Positions 28,815 to 38,157 of a DNA stretch of 64,000 bases are shown piece after piece. Numbering within the stretch: position 1 is the stretch's first letter; each line of letters opens with the position of its first letter. The translations under genes and the position numbers were made by a program. The notes under the pieces were generated by a model. The model saw only the letters and a program-made list of their open reading frames with translations. It was not told the origin of the DNA and searched no databases. The stretch is from Acetobacterium woodii (GTDB lineage: Bacteria; Bacillota; Clostridia; Eubacteriales; Eubacteriaceae): contig JACQZP010000026.1 of assembly GCA_016213825.1 (NCBI GenBank), positions 124,001 to 188,000 on the forward strand, read 5' to 3'.

Positions 28815-29047
28815 ATAAAAATGATTGGTTCAGTTGATTGCTGCCCAGATTTCAGAAACACTGACCCGATTTGACCGGGAAGCCAGGCCTAAAGCGATCA
28901 ATCTTTAATCAGTATAAAAAAACGAATCCTTACAGATTTCTTTACGAAAGGGATAGATATTGCTTAGATCAAACAGTTTTGATAAAATCAGAGAAACACA
29001 GCTGGAGTATCTTCCAGTTGCAGCACATATGGAAAGAAGTGAAAAAA

Positions 29048-29410
29048 ATGTATAACAATGATTATATCATGCGGATGATTGAAGATTTATCGGCTTTTTT
29101 AGCTAATGTGGTGTTTCACAAAGATGCCGCCGCAATTGAAATATTTGATGAACAGGGAAATATTTCAGAAAGCAATTTATTGCATGTGCAGATGTTGGCC
29201 ATGATCGGCGAAGGCCGGCTCAATGAAGCCGAAAACCTGCTGTTTGAAAAAATCGAAGGTGATCCCAACCCGGCCTATTTACAGGTTGCCCTGGATTTTT
29301 ATACCAATCTGGATAACCTCAGCGAAGAGACCCTTAATAACGCCGGCTTTCCCAGAGTCGAGATTGTCGAAGGTTTGGGAGATATTAAAAAGATTTATCA
29401 GGCGATGTAG
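29048..29410 (+). CDS. DUF6483-like hypothetical protein
   Basis: A 120-residue acidic cytoplasmic protein. ATG 29048 follows GGAAAGAAG; a longer reading frame to 28871 has no ribosome site and a basic, non-family-like extension, so I exclude it. The sequence begins MYNNDYIMRMIEDLSAFLA, contains a two-helix tetratricopeptide-like segment (LLHVQMLAMIGEGRLNEAEN) and ends with EGLGDIKKIYQAM. I recall this pattern from DUF6483 proteins of Firmicutes; no function is known. It precedes the RadC gene by 60 bases, probably in one transcript. Confidence 0.7.
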   Translation: MYNNDYIMRMIEDLSAFLANVVFHKDAAAIEIFDEQGNISESNLLHVQMLAMIGEGRLNEAENLLFEKIEGDPNPAYLQVALDFYTNLDNLSEETLNNAGFPRVEIVEGLGDIKKIYQAM

Positions 29411-29470
29411 AAACAGATTAAGTATTATTTGTACCAAGATAAACTATCAGAGCAGAGAAAGGATCGTAAC

Positions 29471-30148
29471 ATGGATAAAAATCCCCACAAAGGCCATCGA
29501 CAACGGGTTAAAAACCGGGTCATCAACGAAGGTATCGACAGTTTTGAGGATCATCAGATTCTCGAGCTGCTGCTATTTTACTGCATTCCGATGAAGGACA
29601 CCAACGAACTGGCGCATCTGCTGATTAAGCATTATGGCTCGCTGTCTGGGGTGTTTGATGCCGATCCCAGAGATCTTTGCGACCAGATCGGTATTACCGA
29701 AAATACCGCCGTGCTGCTGTCCCTGATCCCAGCCTTAGCGCGGCGTTATCAGCAGGGTAAGTTCCGGGAAAAGGCGGTGTTAAACAGTACCACCAAAGCG
29801 GGCGAGTACACCATGGCGCTGTTTACCGGGCGACTCAATGAGGCCTTTTATGTGATCTGCCTGGATAGCCAGAACAAGGTCAACCAGGCCACGCTGCTTC
29901 ACGAAGGCACCATCAACGAAGCGCCGGTTTACCCCCGGCTGATTGTCGAAACGGCCCTGCGCCATCAGGCCGCCAGCATCATCCTGGCCCACAACCACCC
30001 CGGCGGCAGCCAGAAACCCTCCCAGGCCGATCTCGATGTCACCCGCAAGATCAAACTGGCCACCGAAGCCATTGCCATCCCGGTGGTGGATCACATTATT
30101 GTTGCCGGAGAAAGGTATTACAGTTTTGCCGAGAACCGGGTGCTGTGA
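29471..30148 (+). CDS. radC: RadC family JAB-domain protein
   Basis: A 225-residue protein of the RadC (JAMM/MPN metalloprotease-fold) family. ATG 29471 after GAAAGG; an in-frame start at 29429 has no ribosome site. The N-terminal helix-hairpin-helix region (about 1-95) precedes the JAB domain (about 105-225) with the zinc motif H-N-H-P-G-G-S…D (HNHPGGSQKPSQAD). The name suggests DNA repair, but the role in repair is disputed; RadC proteins are common beside mobile elements. It is the last gene before the GC-rich phage-like module, which may use this boundary. Confidence 0.9.
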   Translation: MDKNPHKGHRQRVKNRVINEGIDSFEDHQILELLLFYCIPMKDTNELAHLLIKHYGSLSGVFDADPRDLCDQIGITENTAVLLSLIPALARRYQQGKFREKAVLNSTTKAGEYTMALFTGRLNEAFYVICLDSQNKVNQATLLHEGTINEAPVYPRLIVETALRHQAASIILAHNHPGGSQKPSQADLDVTRKIKLATEAIAIPVVDHIIVAGERYYSFAENRVL

Positions 30149-30272
30149 ACGAAGCGAGCAAAAAGCAGTAGGGTGATGAAAATTTGCCAACAATTAGCGG
30201 GGTAAACGCGCTAGAGGTTGTTTTTATGACAAATATATATCATCAAAAGTTGCTGAAAACGATTGATTGTTT

Positions 30273-30281
30273 TGATATAAT
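30273..30281 (+). promoter_or_regulatory. Extended -10 promoter element at the left edge of the phage-like module
   Basis: TGATATAAT is an extended -10 (TGnTATAAT). No good -35 is seen. A leader of about 125 bases follows with AGGAGG at 30326 not followed by a start codon, and an inverted repeat CCGATGGT (30355) / ACCATCGG (30392). Confidence 0.4.
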
Positions 30282-30414
30282 AATTGTATTCAATGCACTT
30301 GGCATTGCTGGTTTAGAGAAGTAAAGGAGGATAACGGTAGTCTGTGGAAAAAAACCGATGGTCAGTAATCGATTCGGTAAAGAAAATTTCAACCATCGGT
30401 GCAGTAAGAAAGAG

Positions 30415-30858
30415 ATGGTAATGAAAATGCACGTCAACAGAAATAGACACATAAAAAAGCAAGCTAAGCATTCAGATCTGGGTGAAAATGGGCCGGGAAT
30501 CACGGTTGTCCGATGTCCGCACGCACGAACCTGCCGATTTAGCGGGGCACAATCAAAACAAGTCCGAACGCGCTGTCGTGGTGTTCTGTGCCGGGTCAAT
30601 CACTGGGAAGCCTGTCTGATAATTGGTTTTAAATGCCAGTGGTTGCGCAAGCAGATCCTGGTTGAAGTCAAAGGCAATGAGATCCGCTATATTTCCCGTC
30701 ATTCAAGCGAGCACCAGGAAGTGCTGCCCCGGCTCAAGCAGTTGTCCTGCCAGGTCTGTGAGCACCGGGTACTGGATTATCATGTCATCTATGGGGATGC
30801 CATCATCGATGTGAAGTGCAGTCGCGACGGGCATTTGAGTTCCTATTCGATCAAATAA
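30415..30858 (+). CDS. Cys-rich hypothetical protein of the phage-like module
   Basis: About 147 residues from ATG 30415 (30421 and 30427 are possible). Not recognised. It is basic and rich in Cys: VRCPHARTCRFSG, RCRGVLC and the C-terminal pair CQVC … VKC. Such spaced Cys pairs suggest zinc binding. The second half (QILVEVKGNEIRYI … VIYGDAIIDVKC) looks like a small beta-rich domain. It opens the phage-like module and precedes a terminator-like hairpin and the first structured element. Function unknown; a DNA- or RNA-binding role is only a guess. Confidence 0.55.
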   Translation: MVMKMHVNRNRHIKKQAKHSDLGENGPGITVVRCPHARTCRFSGAQSKQVRTRCRGVLCRVNHWEACLIIGFKCQWLRKQILVEVKGNEIRYISRHSSEHQEVLPRLKQLSCQVCEHRVLDYHVIYGDAIIDVKCSRDGHLSSYSIK

Positions 30859-30969
30859 TTAAAAAGGGAGGACGGTTTGGCGGGAAAGCCAGACCAACGA
30901 AAAAAGACAATTAAAGAGTGCCGATGTGAAATGATACTGAGTTAAGATGCGCCTGTTAAACAGAGTGAC

Positions 30970-31037
30970 TAAGATACCGGATGTTCACAAATTTAGGGAA
31001 GTGGCCCAAAAATTTGTGTACATGCGGTATTTTTTTG
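30970..31037 (+). terminator. Large terminator-like hairpin, possible attenuator
   Basis: ATACCGGATGTTCACAAATTT pairs (about 19 of 21) with AAATTTGTGTACATGCGGTAT, then seven T. Its loop contains AAGTGGCCC, which can instead pair with GGGCCCACT just downstream (31048-31056). The two structures would exclude each other only partly, so regulation by attenuation is possible but unproven. Confidence 0.6.
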
Positions 31038-31068
31038 CGTGGAAATGGGCCCACTATGGTGTGTGGTC

Positions 31069-31168
31069 GGGACCGACCATTTATCAATCTGTTGTTCGCT
31101 GCGGAATCGGACAGGCGATGCCGTGTCCGCTCCGATGCGAACAACATGATGTGATAAATGTCGGTCCC
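31069..31168 (+). ncRNA. Structured element A: nested ~100-nt stem-loop upstream of the polymerase gene
   Basis: Outer stem: 31069-31086 with 31152-31168 (17 bp, one bulged C). Middle stem: GTTGTTCGC 31091-31099 with GCGAACAAC 31137-31145. Inner: CGGA 31102-31105 with TCCG 31131-31134, then CGGACA 31108-31113 with TGTCCG 31124-31129, and a GGC-GAT-GCC tip. A paralogous element lies after the polymerase gene (33309-33423) with different stem sequences that still pair. It is either a non-coding or cis-regulatory RNA or a cruciform-forming DNA site. It is not protein coding. Confidence 0.65.
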
Positions 31169-31309
31169 TGTATCAAGGATGGTTTCGGGCCCGGTTATGG
31201 GTTGAGTTTCGGCCCCTGATATAACTAATTATCTGTACTGGTTGATGTTGGTATGGGGGTGTTGCCTCACTGAAATGTCGGCTCCTGCATCAAGGTTGGT
31301 TTCGGGCCC
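31166..31309 (+). repeat. Two copies of a CCTG-ATCAAGG-TGGTTTCGGGCCC tail motif
   Basis: The motif follows structured element A at 31166-31192 and occurs again at 31283-31309. Related copies lie at 33421-33448 and 33491-33518 beyond the polymerase gene. The segment around 31251-31290 (GTATGGGGGTGTTGCCTCAC) also recurs at about 33459-33480. So the whole 31069-31309 block is duplicated on the other side of the gene. Confidence 0.6.
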
Positions 31310-31358
31310 TGTATACAGGTTTCTTGTGGTCACTTCCCCGCAATGAGAAAGGAATAAA

Positions 31359-33296
31359 ATGAAAACAAATTATTGGATGACAACGGACTTGCAGGTGGTG
31401 GCGGATTATTTGGGTGATGCCGTGATCATTGCCTTTGATTTTGAAACGGCCCCGATGGCTGGCTGGCGGGAGGATCGGCAGGCGGCTCTGGACCCACACC
31501 GGGGGGAGATTGTTGGGGTGTCGCTGGCGGTGGCAGCGGGCACCGGGGTGTATCTGCCGCTTAACCACCGGGGTTTTGACAATGCCGAGGCCGCGGCGGT
31601 GTTTGATTTTTTGCGCCGCCGGGTTTTTGAAAACTCCGGGGTCATTAAAATTGCCCATAACCTGGCCTTTGAGGCCAAGTTTCTGCTGGCCCGGGGGATT
31701 GCGCTGGTGGCGCCGGTGTATGACACCATGGCCGGGGCGCAGCTAATTTATAAAGAGGACGGGCATTTTCGCCGGCTGGCTGATGTGGGTTTGAAAACCC
31801 TGGCCTGGGACTGGTTGGCTCTGGCGCTGCCCCGTTTTGTGGCGGTGGTCGGGCTGGGCAGCTTTGCCGATCTTGACCCCAGGGATCAGCAGACCATCGA
31901 CTATGCCTGCAGTGATGCCGATCTGGCGCGGCGCCTCTATTTTCTGGAAAACGACTGGTTTCAGGCCAATATCCCGGCGCACGAAGACCTGATCAAGGCG
32001 ATCGAAAGTCCGGTGGCGCTGTTTACCGCGCGGATGGAGTACCGCGGCTTCCGGATCGATGCGGCTGACATTGCGGCGGCGGCCGTGGTCTGTCAGGACC
32101 AGCTGGGGATTTACCGGAATGATCTGGAAAGGGGTGGCAGTCGACCGGTGCGGGTGGGCAAAAATGCCGCCACCAATGATCTCAAGGCTTATCTCTTTGA
32201 CGATCTCGGTCTGCCGGTGCAAAAACGCACCGACAGCGGCAAAGCGGCGCTGGATGAGGATGCCATCCAGCAGTTAAGCGCCTATTGCCGGGCGCAGGGG
32301 TTGTCGGCAATTGGCTATCTGGAAGCGATCAGTGCCTATCGGGGTCTGGCCAAGCTCTATCAAACCTATGTGCTGGGGCTGGGGGAGCAGATCAATCCGG
32401 TCACCGGGGCGATCCATACCCGGTTGTTTCCGCTGGGAACGGCCACCGGGCGGTTTTCTTCGGCCGAGCCCAATTGTCAGAACCTGCCGGCGGGGCCGGC
32501 CTATGGCATCCCGGTTCGGGATTTCTTTATGGCCCGGCCGGGTACCACCCTGGTGGCGGTGGATTACAGCCAGATCGAGCTGCGGATCGGGGCCTGGTTT
32601 ACCGGCGATGCCAACCTGCTGGCGGTGTACCGGGAGGGTGGCGATATCCACGCCGTCACCACTGCGGCGGTGTATGGAATCACGCTGGCCGAAGCCGGGG
32701 ACAAGGGCCATCCGGAGTATAAGGCCCGGCGGACGGTGGCCAAGAATATCAATTTTGGGATTTTCTACGGCCTCTATCCCCGCGGGCTTCAGGATATTCT
32801 GCGGGTCAAAACCGGTCAGCAACTCAGTCTGGAAGCCTGTCAGGCAATGATTTTCAATCTCCGGCTGGCCTATCCGGGACTTACGCCTTGGCAGGAAGCG
32901 ACCCGTCAGGCGGCCCACTATCACGAAACGGTTGACACGGCGTTGGGCCGGCGCCGCGCTCTGCCGGGGATCAACGCCCCGGAACCGGGGCTCCAGAGTC
33001 ATTTTGAGCGGGCTGCCCTGAACCACCCGATTCAAGGCACGGCGGCGGATATCTTAAAGCTGGCAATGGTCCGGCTGGAGGTGGGACTGGGGGAGCGGCC
33101 ATTCATTTGGCCGCTGCTGACGGTCCATGATGAGATCGTTTTTGAGGTGGAGACCCCTCGGCTGGCAGAGGCCATTGCCTGGATCACCACGGTGATGACG
33201 GCACCGCCCTTCCCGGGTTTTGACGTCCCCCTGGCCGTGGAAGTCACCGTCGGCGACCGCTATGGTTCGCTGGTGGGGTGGCAGTCGGGCGAATAA
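31359..33296 (+). CDS. Family A DNA polymerase, phage type, with 3'-5' exonuclease
   Basis: A 645-residue DNA polymerase with no 5'-3' exonuclease domain, as in phage replicases. ATG 31359 follows GAGAAAGGA. Proofreading domain: Exo I FDFETAP (D27, E29), Exo II NLAFEAKFL, Exo III YACSDADLARR (about 183-195). Polymerase domain: TATGRFSS…NLPAG, motif A DYSQIELRI (about 402), motif B RRTVAKNINFGIFYG (about 457-471), motif C VHDEIVFEV (about 589). All catalytic acids are present. The gene is clearly more GC-rich than regions 1 and 5. It is bracketed by the two structured elements, and downstream comes the primase-helicase, so it is the replicase of a mobile or formerly mobile element. Confidence 0.95.
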   Translation: MKTNYWMTTDLQVVADYLGDAVIIAFDFETAPMAGWREDRQAALDPHRGEIVGVSLAVAAGTGVYLPLNHRGFDNAEAAAVFDFLRRRVFENSGVIKIAHNLAFEAKFLLARGIALVAPVYDTMAGAQLIYKEDGHFRRLADVGLKTLAWDWLALALPRFVAVVGLGSFADLDPRDQQTIDYACSDADLARRLYFLENDWFQANIPAHEDLIKAIESPVALFTARMEYRGFRIDAADIAAAAVVCQDQLGIYRNDLERGGSRPVRVGKNAATNDLKAYLFDDLGLPVQKRTDSGKAALDEDAIQQLSAYCRAQGLSAIGYLEAISAYRGLAKLYQTYVLGLGEQINPVTGAIHTRLFPLGTATGRFSSAEPNCQNLPAGPAYGIPVRDFFMARPGTTLVAVDYSQIELRIGAWFTGDANLLAVYREGGDIHAVTTAAVYGITLAEAGDKGHPEYKARRTVAKNINFGIFYGLYPRGLQDILRVKTGQQLSLEACQAMIFNLRLAYPGLTPWQEATRQAAHYHETVDTALGRRRALPGINAPEPGLQSHFERAALNHPIQGTAADILKLAMVRLEVGLGERPFIWPLLTVHDEIVFEVETPRLAEAIAWITTVMTAPPFPGFDVPLAVEVTVGDRYGSLVGWQSGE

Positions 33297-33308
33297 GAGG
33301 TAGTGGTC

Positions 33309-33423
33309 GGCCAGACAATGGTTAATCCATTGTCGGCTGCGGGATCGGACAGACTATCGCCGTGTCCGCCCCGATGCCGAGGGTCTGCTCTTTGGGTACA
33401 ACCGGGTTAACGATTGTCTGTCC
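33309..33423 (+). ncRNA. Structured element B: paralogue of element A downstream of the polymerase gene
   Basis: Outer stem: 33309-33328 with 33404-33423 (about 17 of 20 paired, sequence different from element A). Middle stem: TCGGC 33333-33337 with GCCGA 33376-33380. Inner: CGGG 33340-33343 with CCCG 33370-33373, and CGGACA 33346-33351 with TGTCCG 33363-33368. Relative to element A, CGGA/TCCG has become CGGG/CCCG on both sides and the other stems have changed with pairing kept, while the CGGACA/TGTCCG stem is identical. That is the signature of selection on structure. Confidence 0.65.
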
Positions 33424-33514
33424 TGTAATTAATGGTTGGTTTCGCCCCTTGGTGGCTGGTATGGGGATGTTGTCTCACGTAAATGTTGGCCCCTGAATCA
33501 AGGTTGCATGTTGG

Positions 33515-33602
33515 CCCGGAGGATGAAAGGGGGACGTTACGGCGTGTCAGCCCTTAGGATGACATCCCGAAATGTCCCCCTGTCATACGGAGGAAACGCA
33601 AC
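33515..33602 (+). repeat. Hairpin element, copy 1
   Basis: An ~85-base element with near-palindromic arms: GGGGGACGTTACGG at 33529 and a CCGAAATGTCCCCC arm ending at 33580, around a GCCCTTAGGA loop. It ends with GGAGGAAACG. It lies just before the primase-helicase gene. Further copies are at 34053, 36373 and 37495. MITE/REP-like. Confidence 0.75.
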
Positions 33603-33642
33603 CTCCGATGGCCGAGATAAATAATATAAATGGAGAAAAGCA

Positions 33643-36096
33643 ATGAACACGAACGCATATGAAAACATCATCCCCCTGACGATTGACCCGGCGGCCTTTC
33701 TGGCCGCCTTTCATGGCGGGCCCTATGGCTTGCGCAGCTTTGCCGACCGACCCGAGGGTCGCGGCGGCCGGGGGCGCAACCGGACGGTGACGGCGGCCCA
33801 ACTGGCGGATCAGGACGGGGCGCTGCTGGCGGCGCTCCGGGCGGAGAATGACGGCGAACAGCGGGGGATCTTTTTTGTAGTTAACCCCGGCGGCCATAAG
33901 GATGCCGAGATCACTGCGGTGGCAGCCCAGTTTGTCGAAGCCGACGATCTGCCGCTCACTCAGCAATGGGACAACCTAATGGCCTTTCCGCTACCGCCCT
34001 CAATTATTGTGCGGACCCGGAAATCCCTCCACGGCTATTGGCTGCTGGCATTACCGGAGGATGAAAGGGGGACGTTACGGGTGTCAGCCCCAAGGATGAC
34101 ATCCCGAAATGTCCCCCTGTCATGCGAAGGAAACGTAACCCCTGATCAAACCGCTTCCGACCTGGCCCGGTTCACCCTGATCCAGAAACAACTGGCGGCT
34201 CATTTTTCCGGCGATCCGGTGATTGCCAACCTCAGCCGGGTGATGCGGCTGCCGGGGTTTGACCACCACAAGGGGGAACCGGTGGCGGTGCGCTGTCTGC
34301 TGTTTGAACCCCAGCGGCGCTATCGCCAGACCGAACTGGCAGCCGTGCTTTGCGAACTGCATCCCGATGATCCTTGCTTCGGGGTACGTGTCGCGGCCGG
34401 AAAAAAAGCCTCTACCACAACGGTCAACACAACCGCCACCACCAGCGCCAAAAACCGGTCGACGGTGGCGCTGGATCTGCCCCGGGGGGATTTTGATCTG
34501 GAGCAGCTGCTGAGCACCTGCGACTTTATCCGGTATTGTCAGGAACAGGCCGCCACCCTGCCGGAACCGTTGTGGTATCCGATGATCACCAATCTGGCCG
34601 ATGTCCCCGGCGGCGAGGCGGCCATCCATCAGCTGTCGGCAGCCCATCCCGGTTATAGTTTCGCGGCTACGGCGGCCAAAATCGAGCAGTTTCGCCGCTC
34701 CAATACCGGGCCCTTCAGCTGTGAAACGATTTCCGCCTGGGGCTTTAACTGTCCCCAGTTGGGCCGCTGTTCGGCCCGGCAGCCCCGGGACCGGGGTCAG
34801 GTCCCGCCGCCGCCCTGGTATCGGCAAACCAGAACCGGGCTGCGGCTGATCCCCGGGGTGCTGGCCAACGCCCTGGCGGCTCACAAGAACATCTTTTATT
34901 CCCGGCAATGCTATTATCAGTATCTGGATGGGGTCTATAAAAAGGTGGAGGAGCTCCATTGCAAGCATATCGTCCGTAAATACCTGCGCACCGATGACGT
35001 CGAGATGCATCAGATCAACGACGTCATTGGCCAGTGGACGATGGAAATTCTGCGCAGCCCCGAAAACTTAAATGTCAATAAAGAGCTGATCAATTTAAAA
35101 AACGGTCTCTATCAACGGTCGACCCGGACGCTTAAACCCCATGATCCCCAGCTGCTCTCAACCATTCAACTGGCGGTGAGCTATGATCCTCAGGCGGCGG
35201 CGCCGATCTTTGCGGCCTTTTTAAACGACTGTCTGGACCCGGAAACCCAGCTGCTGGTTCAGGAGCTGTGCGGTTATCTGCTGGTGCCGGTTACCCGGGC
35301 GCAGAAGGCTTTTGTTCTGGTGGGGGAAGGGGGCGCCGGTAAATCGACGCTGCTTTCCGTGATCCAGGAGCTGTTGCTGGGTTCGGCCAATGTCTCCAAT
35401 ATTTCCTGGCAGAATCTCGGCGAGACCTTTCTGACCGCCGAGCTGGACGGTCGGCTGGCCAATATCTTTGCCGATCTGCCGTCTAAAAATATTGACGACA
35501 GCTCGCTGTTTAAGAGCATCACCGGGGAGGACTGGCTCACTGCCCAGCGTAAAAACAAGGACCCCCACGGCTTTAAGAGTACCGCCCGGCTGGTTTTTTC
35601 CTGCAACAGCATCCCTAAAAATCTCGGCGACCGCAGTGAGGCCTTTTACCGGCGGCTGGTGATCATCCCTTTTGGGCCACCCAAACCGCCTCAGCAGCGG
35701 GACCTTCATTTAAAAGAAAAGCTGGCCCGGGAGGCGCCGGGAATCCTGAACTGGGCCCTGGTGGGCCTTGCGCGCCTCGATCACAATGGCTATCGTTTCA
35801 GCACCTCGGCCGTCAGCCAGGCCGCTCTGGAAAGCTATCGGGTGGCTGGCAGCTCGGTGCTGTCTTTTGTGGCGGATTGCTGCGTAGTCGAGGCCCAGCG
35901 GCAGGTTTCGGCGGCCCAGCTCTACCACGCCTACCAGCAGTACAGCGGGTCATCGGGGCTACGGCCAGTGAGTCAGAAACGCTTCTGGATGGAGTTAAAA
36001 GAAAGTTTTGGGATGGTCGAAAAAACGAAGGATTCGCTGACAAGAAGAGCGATTTACCATGGTGTTGATCTGGAGAATTTTGAAGACTTGGTATGA
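33643..36096 (+). CDS. Primase-helicase (archaeo-eukaryotic-type primase plus D5/SF3 helicase)
   Basis: An 817-residue replication protein. Residues 1-260 resemble a RepB/PrimPol-type primase, with GIFFVVNPGG and the HGYW motif (about 131-134, in RKSLHGYWLL). A poxvirus D5 N-like region (about 395-530) precedes an SF3 helicase: Walker A GEGGAGKS (about 561-568), Walker B NIFADLPSK, and motif C VFSCNSIP. Codons at about 138-166 (LPEDERG … EGNVTP) are a copy of the hairpin element inserted in frame, right after the HGYW motif. ATG 33643 is preceded only by GGAGAAAAGC. Together with the polymerase gene it forms a complete phage/plasmid-type replication set. Confidence 0.88.
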   Translation: MNTNAYENIIPLTIDPAAFLAAFHGGPYGLRSFADRPEGRGGRGRNRTVTAAQLADQDGALLAALRAENDGEQRGIFFVVNPGGHKDAEITAVAAQFVEADDLPLTQQWDNLMAFPLPPSIIVRTRKSLHGYWLLALPEDERGTLRVSAPRMTSRNVPLSCEGNVTPDQTASDLARFTLIQKQLAAHFSGDPVIANLSRVMRLPGFDHHKGEPVAVRCLLFEPQRRYRQTELAAVLCELHPDDPCFGVRVAAGKKASTTTVNTTATTSAKNRSTVALDLPRGDFDLEQLLSTCDFIRYCQEQAATLPEPLWYPMITNLADVPGGEAAIHQLSAAHPGYSFAATAAKIEQFRRSNTGPFSCETISAWGFNCPQLGRCSARQPRDRGQVPPPPWYRQTRTGLRLIPGVLANALAAHKNIFYSRQCYYQYLDGVYKKVEELHCKHIVRKYLRTDDVEMHQINDVIGQWTMEILRSPENLNVNKELINLKNGLYQRSTRTLKPHDPQLLSTIQLAVSYDPQAAAPIFAAFLNDCLDPETQLLVQELCGYLLVPVTRAQKAFVLVGEGGAGKSTLLSVIQELLLGSANVSNISWQNLGETFLTAELDGRLANIFADLPSKNIDDSSLFKSITGEDWLTAQRKNKDPHGFKSTARLVFSCNSIPKNLGDRSEAFYRRLVIIPFGPPKPPQQRDLHLKEKLAREAPGILNWALVGLARLDHNGYRFSTSAVSQAALESYRVAGSSVLSFVADCCVVEAQRQVSAAQLYHAYQQYSGSSGLRPVSQKRFWMELKESFGMVEKTKDSLTRRAIYHGVDLENFEDLV
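34053..34140 (+). repeat. Hairpin element, copy 2, inside the primase-helicase coding region
   Basis: The sequence from CCGGAGGATGAAAGG to CGAAGGAAACGTAACC matches copies 1, 3 and 4 and keeps the reading frame open. The GGGGGAC/GTCCCCC arms are intact, and the loop differs by two bases (GCCCCAAGGA). Confidence 0.75.
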
Positions 36097-36149
36097 AGTT
36101 GAATCATACGAAAAGAAAAGGCGAAATCGATATCGTCAATCGCACCAAA

Positions 36150-36228
36150 ACGAAGCGGTTTCGAAGCCTTTCGAAGCCGTTGCGAAGGGTTTGAACGGCT
36201 TTAATAAGGGATTCGAAGGGATCGAAGG
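36150..36228 (+). repeat. Iteron-like CGAAG repeats after the helicase gene
   Basis: CGAAG occurs at 36151, 36162, 36172, 36183, 36213 and 36222, the first four spaced 10-11 bases, with TTCGAAG cores. A reading frame through this stretch (36059-36253, ending GFEGIEGFFSKLSA) overlaps the helicase gene end and may be only a by-product of the repeats. Phased short repeats beside a primase-helicase gene suggest a replication origin. I see no other content to 36372. Confidence 0.4.
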
Positions 36229-36372
36229 CTTTTTTTCCAAACTCAGCGCCTAAGAACAAAAAAAATAAAATAAACAAACGGGTTATTTTACCCTGCCAAC
36301 CCCTTCGACCCATTCGGAAAGCCCGGAACCGGGTGAAAAGAAACCAGTGGAAAAGTAGCGTGAAAAGCATGC

Positions 36373-36453
36373 CAGAGGATGACAGGGGGACGTTACGGGT
36401 GTCAGCCCTTAGGATGACATCCCGAAATGTCCCCCTGTCATGCGGAGGAAACG
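36373..36453 (+). repeat. Hairpin element, copy 3 (longest palindrome)
   Basis: In this copy the outer arms ATGACAGGGGGAC and GTCCCCCTGTCAT are fully complementary, giving about 26-base arms with few mismatches. Copies 1, 2 and 4 have A instead of C in the left arm. It lies upstream of the sigma-region-4-like gene. Confidence 0.75.
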
Positions 36454-36513
36454 GCACTCTTCACGCAGCAACCCGGCGGTGCCACCACTACCGATAAAAG
36501 AAAGGAGCTTCTC

Positions 36514-36912
36514 ATGAGTAACAAAACCATCAAAACCATCAAAGCCAATATCACCGACCTTAAGGCGCGGATCTGGCGCAATACCCAATTTCTTGAGCAT
36601 GCTCAGAAACAGCTGGCGCTGATCTATCGGGCGACATCGGCGACCAATCGCCGCAGTCGAGCGCAGATCGGCCAGCTCCGAGCCGCCATTGACCGGGACA
36701 GCCGTCAGCTGGAAGCCGCCAATCAGGCCCTGGTGGCCGCCATTGACAACCAGGCCAGCCCCCAGATCCAGGAGCTGCTGACCCGCCGCTATATCAATGA
36801 CCAGCCCTTTGCCGACATCGCGGATGCCATGGGGTATGATCTGCGCTGGGTCTACCGGCTCCATGCCCGGGGGCTGGGGGCGGAAAAAAAGCCGGGTACG
36901 CGAAACCATTAA
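36514..36912 (+). CDS. Phage-type transcription regulator with sigma region 4-like HTH
   Basis: A 132-residue protein; ATG 36514 after AAAGGAGC. The N-terminal two thirds are a charged coiled coil (IKANITDLKARIWRNTQF … IDRDSRQLEAANQALVAAI). The C-terminal end LLTRRYINDQPFADIADAMGYDLRWVYRLHARGL is the helix-turn-helix of sigma-70 region 4 as found in DUF1492/ArpU-like late-gene regulators of Gram-positive phages. It probably activates the downstream lysis genes. A longer frame to 36427 would start inside the hairpin element and is rejected. Confidence 0.75.
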   Translation: MSNKTIKTIKANITDLKARIWRNTQFLEHAQKQLALIYRATSATNRRSRAQIGQLRAAIDRDSRQLEAANQALVAAIDNQASPQIQELLTRRYINDQPFADIADAMGYDLRWVYRLHARGLGAEKKPGTRNH

Positions 36913-37002
36913 CGGTCCGACTCTGCTCAGTCAACACGCCATTTAAAGCCATCTGCCGATCATGATAAACTGAAAACAAATCTAGGAAGGGAGGACATCC
37001 AA

Positions 37003-37224
37003 ATGGCAGTAACCACTGATTTTCTGGAACAGAAGATCCAGATCCGCTCCAACCATGGCCTTGTCGATGGTAAAGAGAAAATCACCAGCCGTACCTATGG
37101 CGATGTGAAAGCCGCGGCCACCGATGCCGACATCTACGATGTGGCGACGATCATTGCCGGGCTTCAGGAGCCGGTACTGGAAGAAGTCATCAAACACGAA
37201 GTAAGCCTGATCGTACCGGTCTAA
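37003..37224 (+). CDS. DUF1659 protein
   Basis: A 73-residue protein from ATG 37003 after GGGAGGAC. The sequence (KITSRTYGDVKAAATDADIYDVATIIAGL) matches the DUF1659 family, small proteins found in Firmicutes beside DUF2922 and YvrJ genes and in phage lysis regions. Function unknown. The next gene starts 33 bases downstream in the same transcript. Codon use is like the rest of the module. Confidence 0.8.
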   Translation: MAVTTDFLEQKIQIRSNHGLVDGKEKITSRTYGDVKAAATDADIYDVATIIAGLQEPVLEEVIKHEVSLIVPV

Positions 37225-37257
37225 AGCTGATTCAAATCTAACGAAAGGAGGAACTCA

Positions 37258-37482
37258 ATGGCAGCAAATACCATCTTGCAACTGACCTTTAAACGGTCAG
37301 ATCTGAAAACTACCACCATGTCGATTACCAATCCCAAGACGGGACTGACAGTGGATGCAGTCAACACCGCCATGGCGGCCATTATTGCCAAAAACATTTT
37401 TGCCCCGGATGGCATGAACCTGATCGCCAAAGCCAAGGCCGAACTGGTCGTCACCGACACCACCGCCTTTTCGATGAGCTAG
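37258..37482 (+). CDS. DUF2922 protein
   Basis: A 74-residue protein from ATG 37258 after AAAGGAGG. LQLTFKRSDLKTTTMSITNPK and the C-terminal KAKAELVVTDTTAF fit DUF2922. These usually form a DUF1659-DUF2922-YvrJ trio; no YvrJ gene follows, and its usual place holds hairpin element copy 4. Confidence 0.8.
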   Translation: MAANTILQLTFKRSDLKTTTMSITNPKTGLTVDAVNTAMAAIIAKNIFAPDGMNLIAKAKAELVVTDTTAFSMS

Positions 37483-37494
37483 GCAGGGCATAGT

Positions 37495-37582
37495 CCCGGA
37501 GGATGAAAGGGGGACGTTACGGCGTGTCAGCCCTTAGGATGACATCCCGAAATGTCCCACTGTCATGCGCAGGAAACGCAAC
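37495..37582 (+). repeat. Hairpin element, copy 4
   Basis: Nearly identical to copy 1, including GGCGTGTCAGCCCTTAGG; one change in the right arm (TGTCCCAC) weakens the stem. It sits between the DUF2922 and endolysin genes. Confidence 0.75.
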
Positions 37583-37611
37583 TCAAAAATAAATCACTGA
37601 AAGGATAAACG

Positions 37612-38157
37612 ATGAACCCATTTATTAAAAAAGTCCAGGAAGCCCTGGCGGCCCGGGGCTATGCTCCCGGGCCAATTGACGGCCGGGATGGACCCAAAAC
37701 CCAGAAGGCGGTTAAGGCCTTCCAGCAGGACTCGGGACTTAGCCCCGATGGCCAGGTGGGGTGCCTCACGGAGAACCGGCTCTTTACCGAGCAGCTTAGC
37801 GTCATTTCCTTTGATGGCGATGGCTCGACTCCGCATTTTGCCCGGGCGGAATTTGCCTGCGATTGTGGCGGCGTCTATTGTGACGGCTTTCCGGCGGAGA
37901 TGAATCTGGAGCTGCTGCTGAAGCTGGAAGCCCTGCGCAACGCCTTAAACGTTCCGGTGATCATCACCTCAGGAGTCCGTTGCCCCACACGCAACGCCGA
38001 AGTGGGGGGCGTCGACAATTCCCAGCACCTCTTTGGTCAGGCCGCCGATCTCTATGCCCCCGGCATCCCGATTGAAACCGTCGCCGCCATCGCCGAAAGT
38101 CTGGGGCTGGCAGCCATTCTTTATGCTGACCGGGGCTTTGTCCATCTGGCGGTATAG
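37612..38157 (+). CDS. Endolysin: peptidoglycan-binding domain plus M15 peptidase
   Basis: A 181-residue lysis enzyme. Start ATG 37612 after GAAAGG. PG_binding_1 domain at about 4-62 (AARGYAPGPIDGRDGPKT … FQQDSGLSPDGQVG). The peptidase M15A domain is about 72-181, with zinc ligands in S-Q-H-L-F-G-Q-A-A-D (the family's S-x-H-x-x-G-x-A-x-D) and the final FVHLAV. It would cut D-Ala-containing cross-links (VanY/carboxypeptidase fold). It lacks a signal peptide, so export needs the holin encoded next, whose start overlaps this gene's end. Confidence 0.88.
   Translation: MNPFIKKVQEALAARGYAPGPIDGRDGPKTQKAVKAFQQDSGLSPDGQVGCLTENRLFTEQLSVISFDGDGSTPHFARAEFACDCGGVYCDGFPAEMNLELLLKLEALRNALNVPVIITSGVRCPTRNAEVGGVDNSQHLFGQAADLYAPGIPIETVAAIAESLGLAAILYADRGFVHLAV

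Follow-up and report, generated by a model that had tools for sequence, protein, structure and literature searches.

Two nested stem-loops flank a phage-type DNA polymerase gene in Acetobacterium woodii, which raises the question whether they serve that gene or only happen to lie beside it. The stretch of DNA analysed here, hereafter the window, comprises 64,000 nucleotides (C15:124001-188000 of genome G000). A sequence-only reading of the window had seen in the two elements, A and B, selection for structure and had offered as roles a regulatory RNA of the replicase, a replication origin or primer RNA, or the ends of an element. The features concerned are listed below in window coordinates.

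30971..31033, no strand assigned: terminator-like inverted repeat just upstream of A; its arms of 24 nt are 88% complementary and lead into TTTTTTT
31068..31170, plus strand: copy A, 103-nt hairpin core; the outer 18 and 22 nt of the element are decayed here
31249..31309, plus strand: downstream flank of A, 80% identity to the downstream flank of B
31359..33296, plus strand: family A DNA polymerase with 3'-5' exonuclease domain, a neighbour outside the element
33303..33427, plus strand: copy B, diverged; one arm carries an insert at about 33378-33402
33457..33517, plus strand: downstream flank of B, partner of 31249-31309
33643..36096, plus strand: D5/DUF5906 primase-helicase, a neighbour outside the element

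The surrounding phage-like module (28871-38157) encodes RadC, the polymerase, the primase-helicase, a regulator and endolysin-like genes, and its polymerase-primase part is about 80% conserved in two other Acetobacterium genomes. The module also contains four copies, at 94-97% identity, of another palindromic repeat (GGGGGACGTTACGGCG..CCGAAATGTCCCCC) that has no relation to A and B (33516-33600, 34054-34135, 36372-36453 and 37495-37580); weaker matches lie elsewhere in the genome.

A and B fold as the same nested stem-loop at the places first described, far better than shuffled sequences and on either strand. Copy A reaches -64.7 kcal/mol (z -8.4) and copy B -54 kcal/mol (z -3.6), with 0 shuffles as good in both cases. 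The apical CGGACA/TGTCCG stem is common to the two, and CGGA/TCCG in A against CGGG/CCCG in B is indeed a paired change. Since the minus strand folds equally well or better (z -11.7 for A and -5.2 for B), the fold gives no pointer to an RNA strand. Rfam contains no match to the A/B hairpin at gathering score and nothing credible at either threshold used, in accordance with the earlier reading, which did not recognise it as a named RNA class. In its right arm B has an insert of about 20 nt, AGGGTCTGCTCTTTGGGTA (33380-33398), with further occurrences at other places in the genome. A 19-nt motif, AGGGTCTGCYCTTTGGGTA, occurs 13 times in the genome with up to two mismatches (at 33380-33398 and at 12 other places; reversed control 0), sometimes within the hairpin, in either arm, and sometimes alone.

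Both members of the pair are thus real, but where they lie is nothing unusual: they are part of a dispersed family with at least 20 full or partial copies, A and B included, in the window's own genome. The repeat unit is a 103-nt hairpin inside an element of about 143 nt and is restricted to the genus Acetobacterium: the exact apical pattern is present in 7 to 55 copies each in 13 of the 19 Acetobacterium genomes (reversed pattern 0), while consensus matches at lenient identity extend to all 19 but one. Among named records, matches fall in Acetobacterium dehalogenans, A. wieringae and A. fimetarium, with others in related MAGs. Outside the genus, the exact apex is missing from all 101 genomes tried, which represent other genera of the same family, order and class; for so short a pattern, the few matches to Rhodococcus, Streptomyces and a MAG of Eremiobacterota are probably fortuitous and were disregarded. 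As expected of a MITE, the repeat is short, non-coding, multi-copy and intergenic, overlapping an open reading frame of at least 200 aa at 5 of 121 copies compared with 898 of 1210 random positions (74%). Some long variants (L128:5180-5370, L210, L136 and others) have about 70-90 extra nt in one arm, partly common between copies.

The paired changes hold across the family. In an alignment of 65 non-redundant short-form copies (A2) the 37 pairs form in 99.0% of cells, and 8 of them show double changes, for example C-G in 42 and U-A in 23 copies, or G-C in 36 and A-U in 25. Double-change cells number 88, compared with 27.6 in shuffles, none of which reached the observed value, and structures slid along the alignment pair in 24-43% of cells. 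Because the 65 copies descend from mobile parents, these cells are not independent events. The pairing-preserving variation that had been read as selection for structure is genuine. In mobile palindromic DNA whose two strands fold about equally well, however, paired changes by themselves are no proof of selection at the RNA level. Covariation in a dispersed palindrome, in other words, need not signal a regulatory RNA.

The ends of the copies bear on how they came to be dispersed. The element of about 143 nt consists of a left end, GAGGTTGTCGATAAACTA, the 103-nt imperfect palindrome and a right end, GGTTATCTTTTTTGACAGTCTG; beyond the core, weaker conservation extends for about 18 nt on the upstream side and for 12-22 nt on the downstream side. 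Among 121 loci, partly sampled via the exact apical pattern, 25% have a direct repeat (score of at least 11) in their matched left and right flanks, compared with 0.7% of mismatched flank pairs. These repeats typically stop 16-18 nt before the core and resume about 22 nt after it, abutting the inferred element ends. Folding against shuffles showed that 19 of the 22 strong repeats are significant hairpins of 19-46 nt, and in the best-preserved copies they are whole intrinsic-terminator hairpins of variable length. Hairpins and A- or T-runs are enriched beside the element relative to sequence some 80 nt farther away. Intact ends are scarce (12 of 121 with GACAGTCTG, 25 of 121 with AGGTTGTC), and about three quarters of the copies display no clear duplication.

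Orthologous loci with and without the element reveal the same duplication. L087 carries AAGCCATCACTTAACGTGGTGGCTT on both sides of the element, whereas the corresponding site has one hairpin and no element in G011 and likewise in G018. Two copies of a 38-nt hairpin enclose the element at L112; in G007, G010, G012 and G018 this site shows a single hairpin without the element, and in G001, G002 and G003 the element is present in the opposite orientation. This inversion at one site in three genomes (L208, L210, L211) perhaps arose through recombination between the two flanking hairpin copies. In the comparisons L133/L073, L153/L006 and L053/L155 the occupied site again has two hairpins and the empty site one, and L107/L171 is similar. 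A counter-case is L048/L046, where the target hairpin was split and not duplicated. Target-site duplications and empty sites, both characteristic of MITEs, are hence found in this family, although they are not visible in most of the decayed copies.

At copy A itself a recognisable duplication is absent, and the inverted repeat at 30971..31033 is a plausible target of the insertion. A. dehalogenans (L128) has this repeat together with the polymerase-primase module, yet its A site is empty; the HGW-Firmicutes-4 MAG (L156) contains A in canonical form, and B is found in both relatives. As the A and B sites resemble each other in flank and hairpin, they may be linked through local duplication, and in that case their position around the polymerase gene would be incidental. 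A replication-linked element, whether origin, primer RNA or regulator of the phage-type polymerase, would account for A and B flanking polA next to the primase-helicase and for B in two relatives. It is nevertheless very improbable, given at least 20 copies at unrelated places of the genome, an A site that is empty where the module is retained, and copies across the genus that lie mostly beside terminators and outside genes. Of the roles initially offered, it is the ends of an element that agree with what we found.

A potential source of the mobilising enzyme is an insertion sequence (IS) of about 1.48 kb with the ends CAGACTGTCAAAAAAG...CTTTGACAGTCTG, present in three Acetobacterium genomes. 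Its end CAGACTGTCAAAAAAG matches the right end of the MITE at 16 of 16 positions, while the degenerate left end matches the IS repeat at 7 of 11, so that the terminal repeats expected to be common to a MITE and its autonomous element are clear on the right and weak on the left. The transposase has DUF772 and DDE domains; the L236 copy is an open frame of 476 aa and scores 362.5 bits on NF033551 (NCBIfam, IS1182 family), above the cut-off of 270. Duplicated hairpins border the ISs at L235 and L236, and two different hairpins border that at L233; palindromic targets, which have been reported for certain IS1182-family members, thus occur at both ends of all three. We found no intact IS1182 transposase in the window's own genome and no IS with MITE-matching ends in MITE-rich genomes such as G001 and G003. 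The sole PF13751 gene of the window's genome was rejected as partner because it is degraded and belongs to a different IS whose ends do not match, and the ends of several further IS1182-like elements in the genus are different.

Taken from sequence, the dispersal, the ends, the hairpin duplications, the empty sites and an IS that agrees with the MITE at one end and has hairpin duplications of the same kind make it very likely that A and B are decayed copies of a MITE of about 143 nt, moved by an IS1182-family transposase in trans, that targets terminator hairpins and duplicates them whole. We infer that the transposase mobilises the element in trans, would select an intrinsic-terminator hairpin by its structure and would attach the ends of the element to both 5' feet of that hairpin. 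Gap repair would then duplicate the entire stem-loop, so the length of the duplication would be set by the hairpin. The A-run would stay with the left hairpin copy and the T-run with the right, which is why both neighbouring genes can keep a terminator and probably retain their stop signals after insertion. Terminators that are duplicated and not broken suggest a low-harm mode of spread.

The hairpin appears to change slowly after insertion. Across nine orthologous insertions, 37 of 702 core positions that lie outside the sampling pattern differ (5.3%); changes are rarer at stem than at unpaired positions and four are compensated pairs. A doubtful tenth pair, L143/L156, was left out of this per-position comparison. 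Over all ten pairs the outer 40 nt of the element differ by 19%, the farther flanks by 9% and the whole core by 5.6%. These differences suggest, within the limits of small numbers and biased sampling, that the hairpin is maintained, whether by selection or through conversion among copies. As the core diverges more slowly than the element ends, it may have some maintained role. That selection retains the hairpin once it has landed at terminators, and that the host uses it, for instance as RNA or DNA structure between duplicated terminators, we consider possible though rather unlikely; if true, a structure-targeting MITE would have turned into a genus-wide transcript-end element.

The same figures, a core at about 5% compared with about 19% for the outer 40 nt and stems that change less, together with the strong paired changes, would also fit a hairpin that is cotranscribed with the upstream gene, works as a cis-acting or small RNA, is selected at the RNA level for 3'-end protection or termination, and was spread by recombination. 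This is improbable in view of the terminal repeat common with an IS, the hairpin target duplications and the empty sites, and of strands that fold about equally and opposite orientations at one orthologous site. Tens of intergenic palindromic copies also recall REP/BIME repeats spread by a RAYT (Y1) transposase. REP sequences are, however, hairpins of 20-40 bp with a GTAG/GGAG tag, which is not seen at the foot of the Acetobacterium hairpin, and both the structure of the ends and the duplicated targets indicate a DDE-type process; we consider a RAYT origin very improbable. An integron attC site was dropped, as matching boxes were absent by eye.

The MITE reading places the family among known small mobile elements. 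Like the bacterial MITEs RUP and ERIC it is short, palindromic, intergenic and non-coding, and mobilised in trans or presumed so (PMC10969869), but these target a short sequence motif, whereas the Acetobacterium element targets a hairpin that sets a variable duplication length; the same review does not mention IS1182. SPRITE of S. pneumoniae is likewise a small dispersed repeat tied to rho-independent terminator-like sequence (PMC10969869), except that there the repeat itself is described as terminator-like, while here the terminator is the target. Closest in mechanism are IS1272 and TnSha1, which share with the partner IS a DDE transposase of the IS1182 family and structure-based targeting of inverted repeats, often terminator hairpins (PMC5678879, PMC4923244). 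IS1272 targets hairpins but removes or replaces them without duplication (PMC4923244, PMC5678879); the Acetobacterium element usually duplicates the whole hairpin where the target is readable. According to a 2025 paper, IS1182 relatives can act either with a duplication or without one, and a DNA structure may be what they recognise (PMC12056078). Wan et al. 2017 noted that attack at the 5' feet would duplicate the whole stem-loop and drew this as theoretical pathway b (PMC5678879). The Acetobacterium family looks like a natural instance of that pathway and appears to provide natural evidence, from several independent sites, for a transposition outcome previously drawn as a theoretical alternative.
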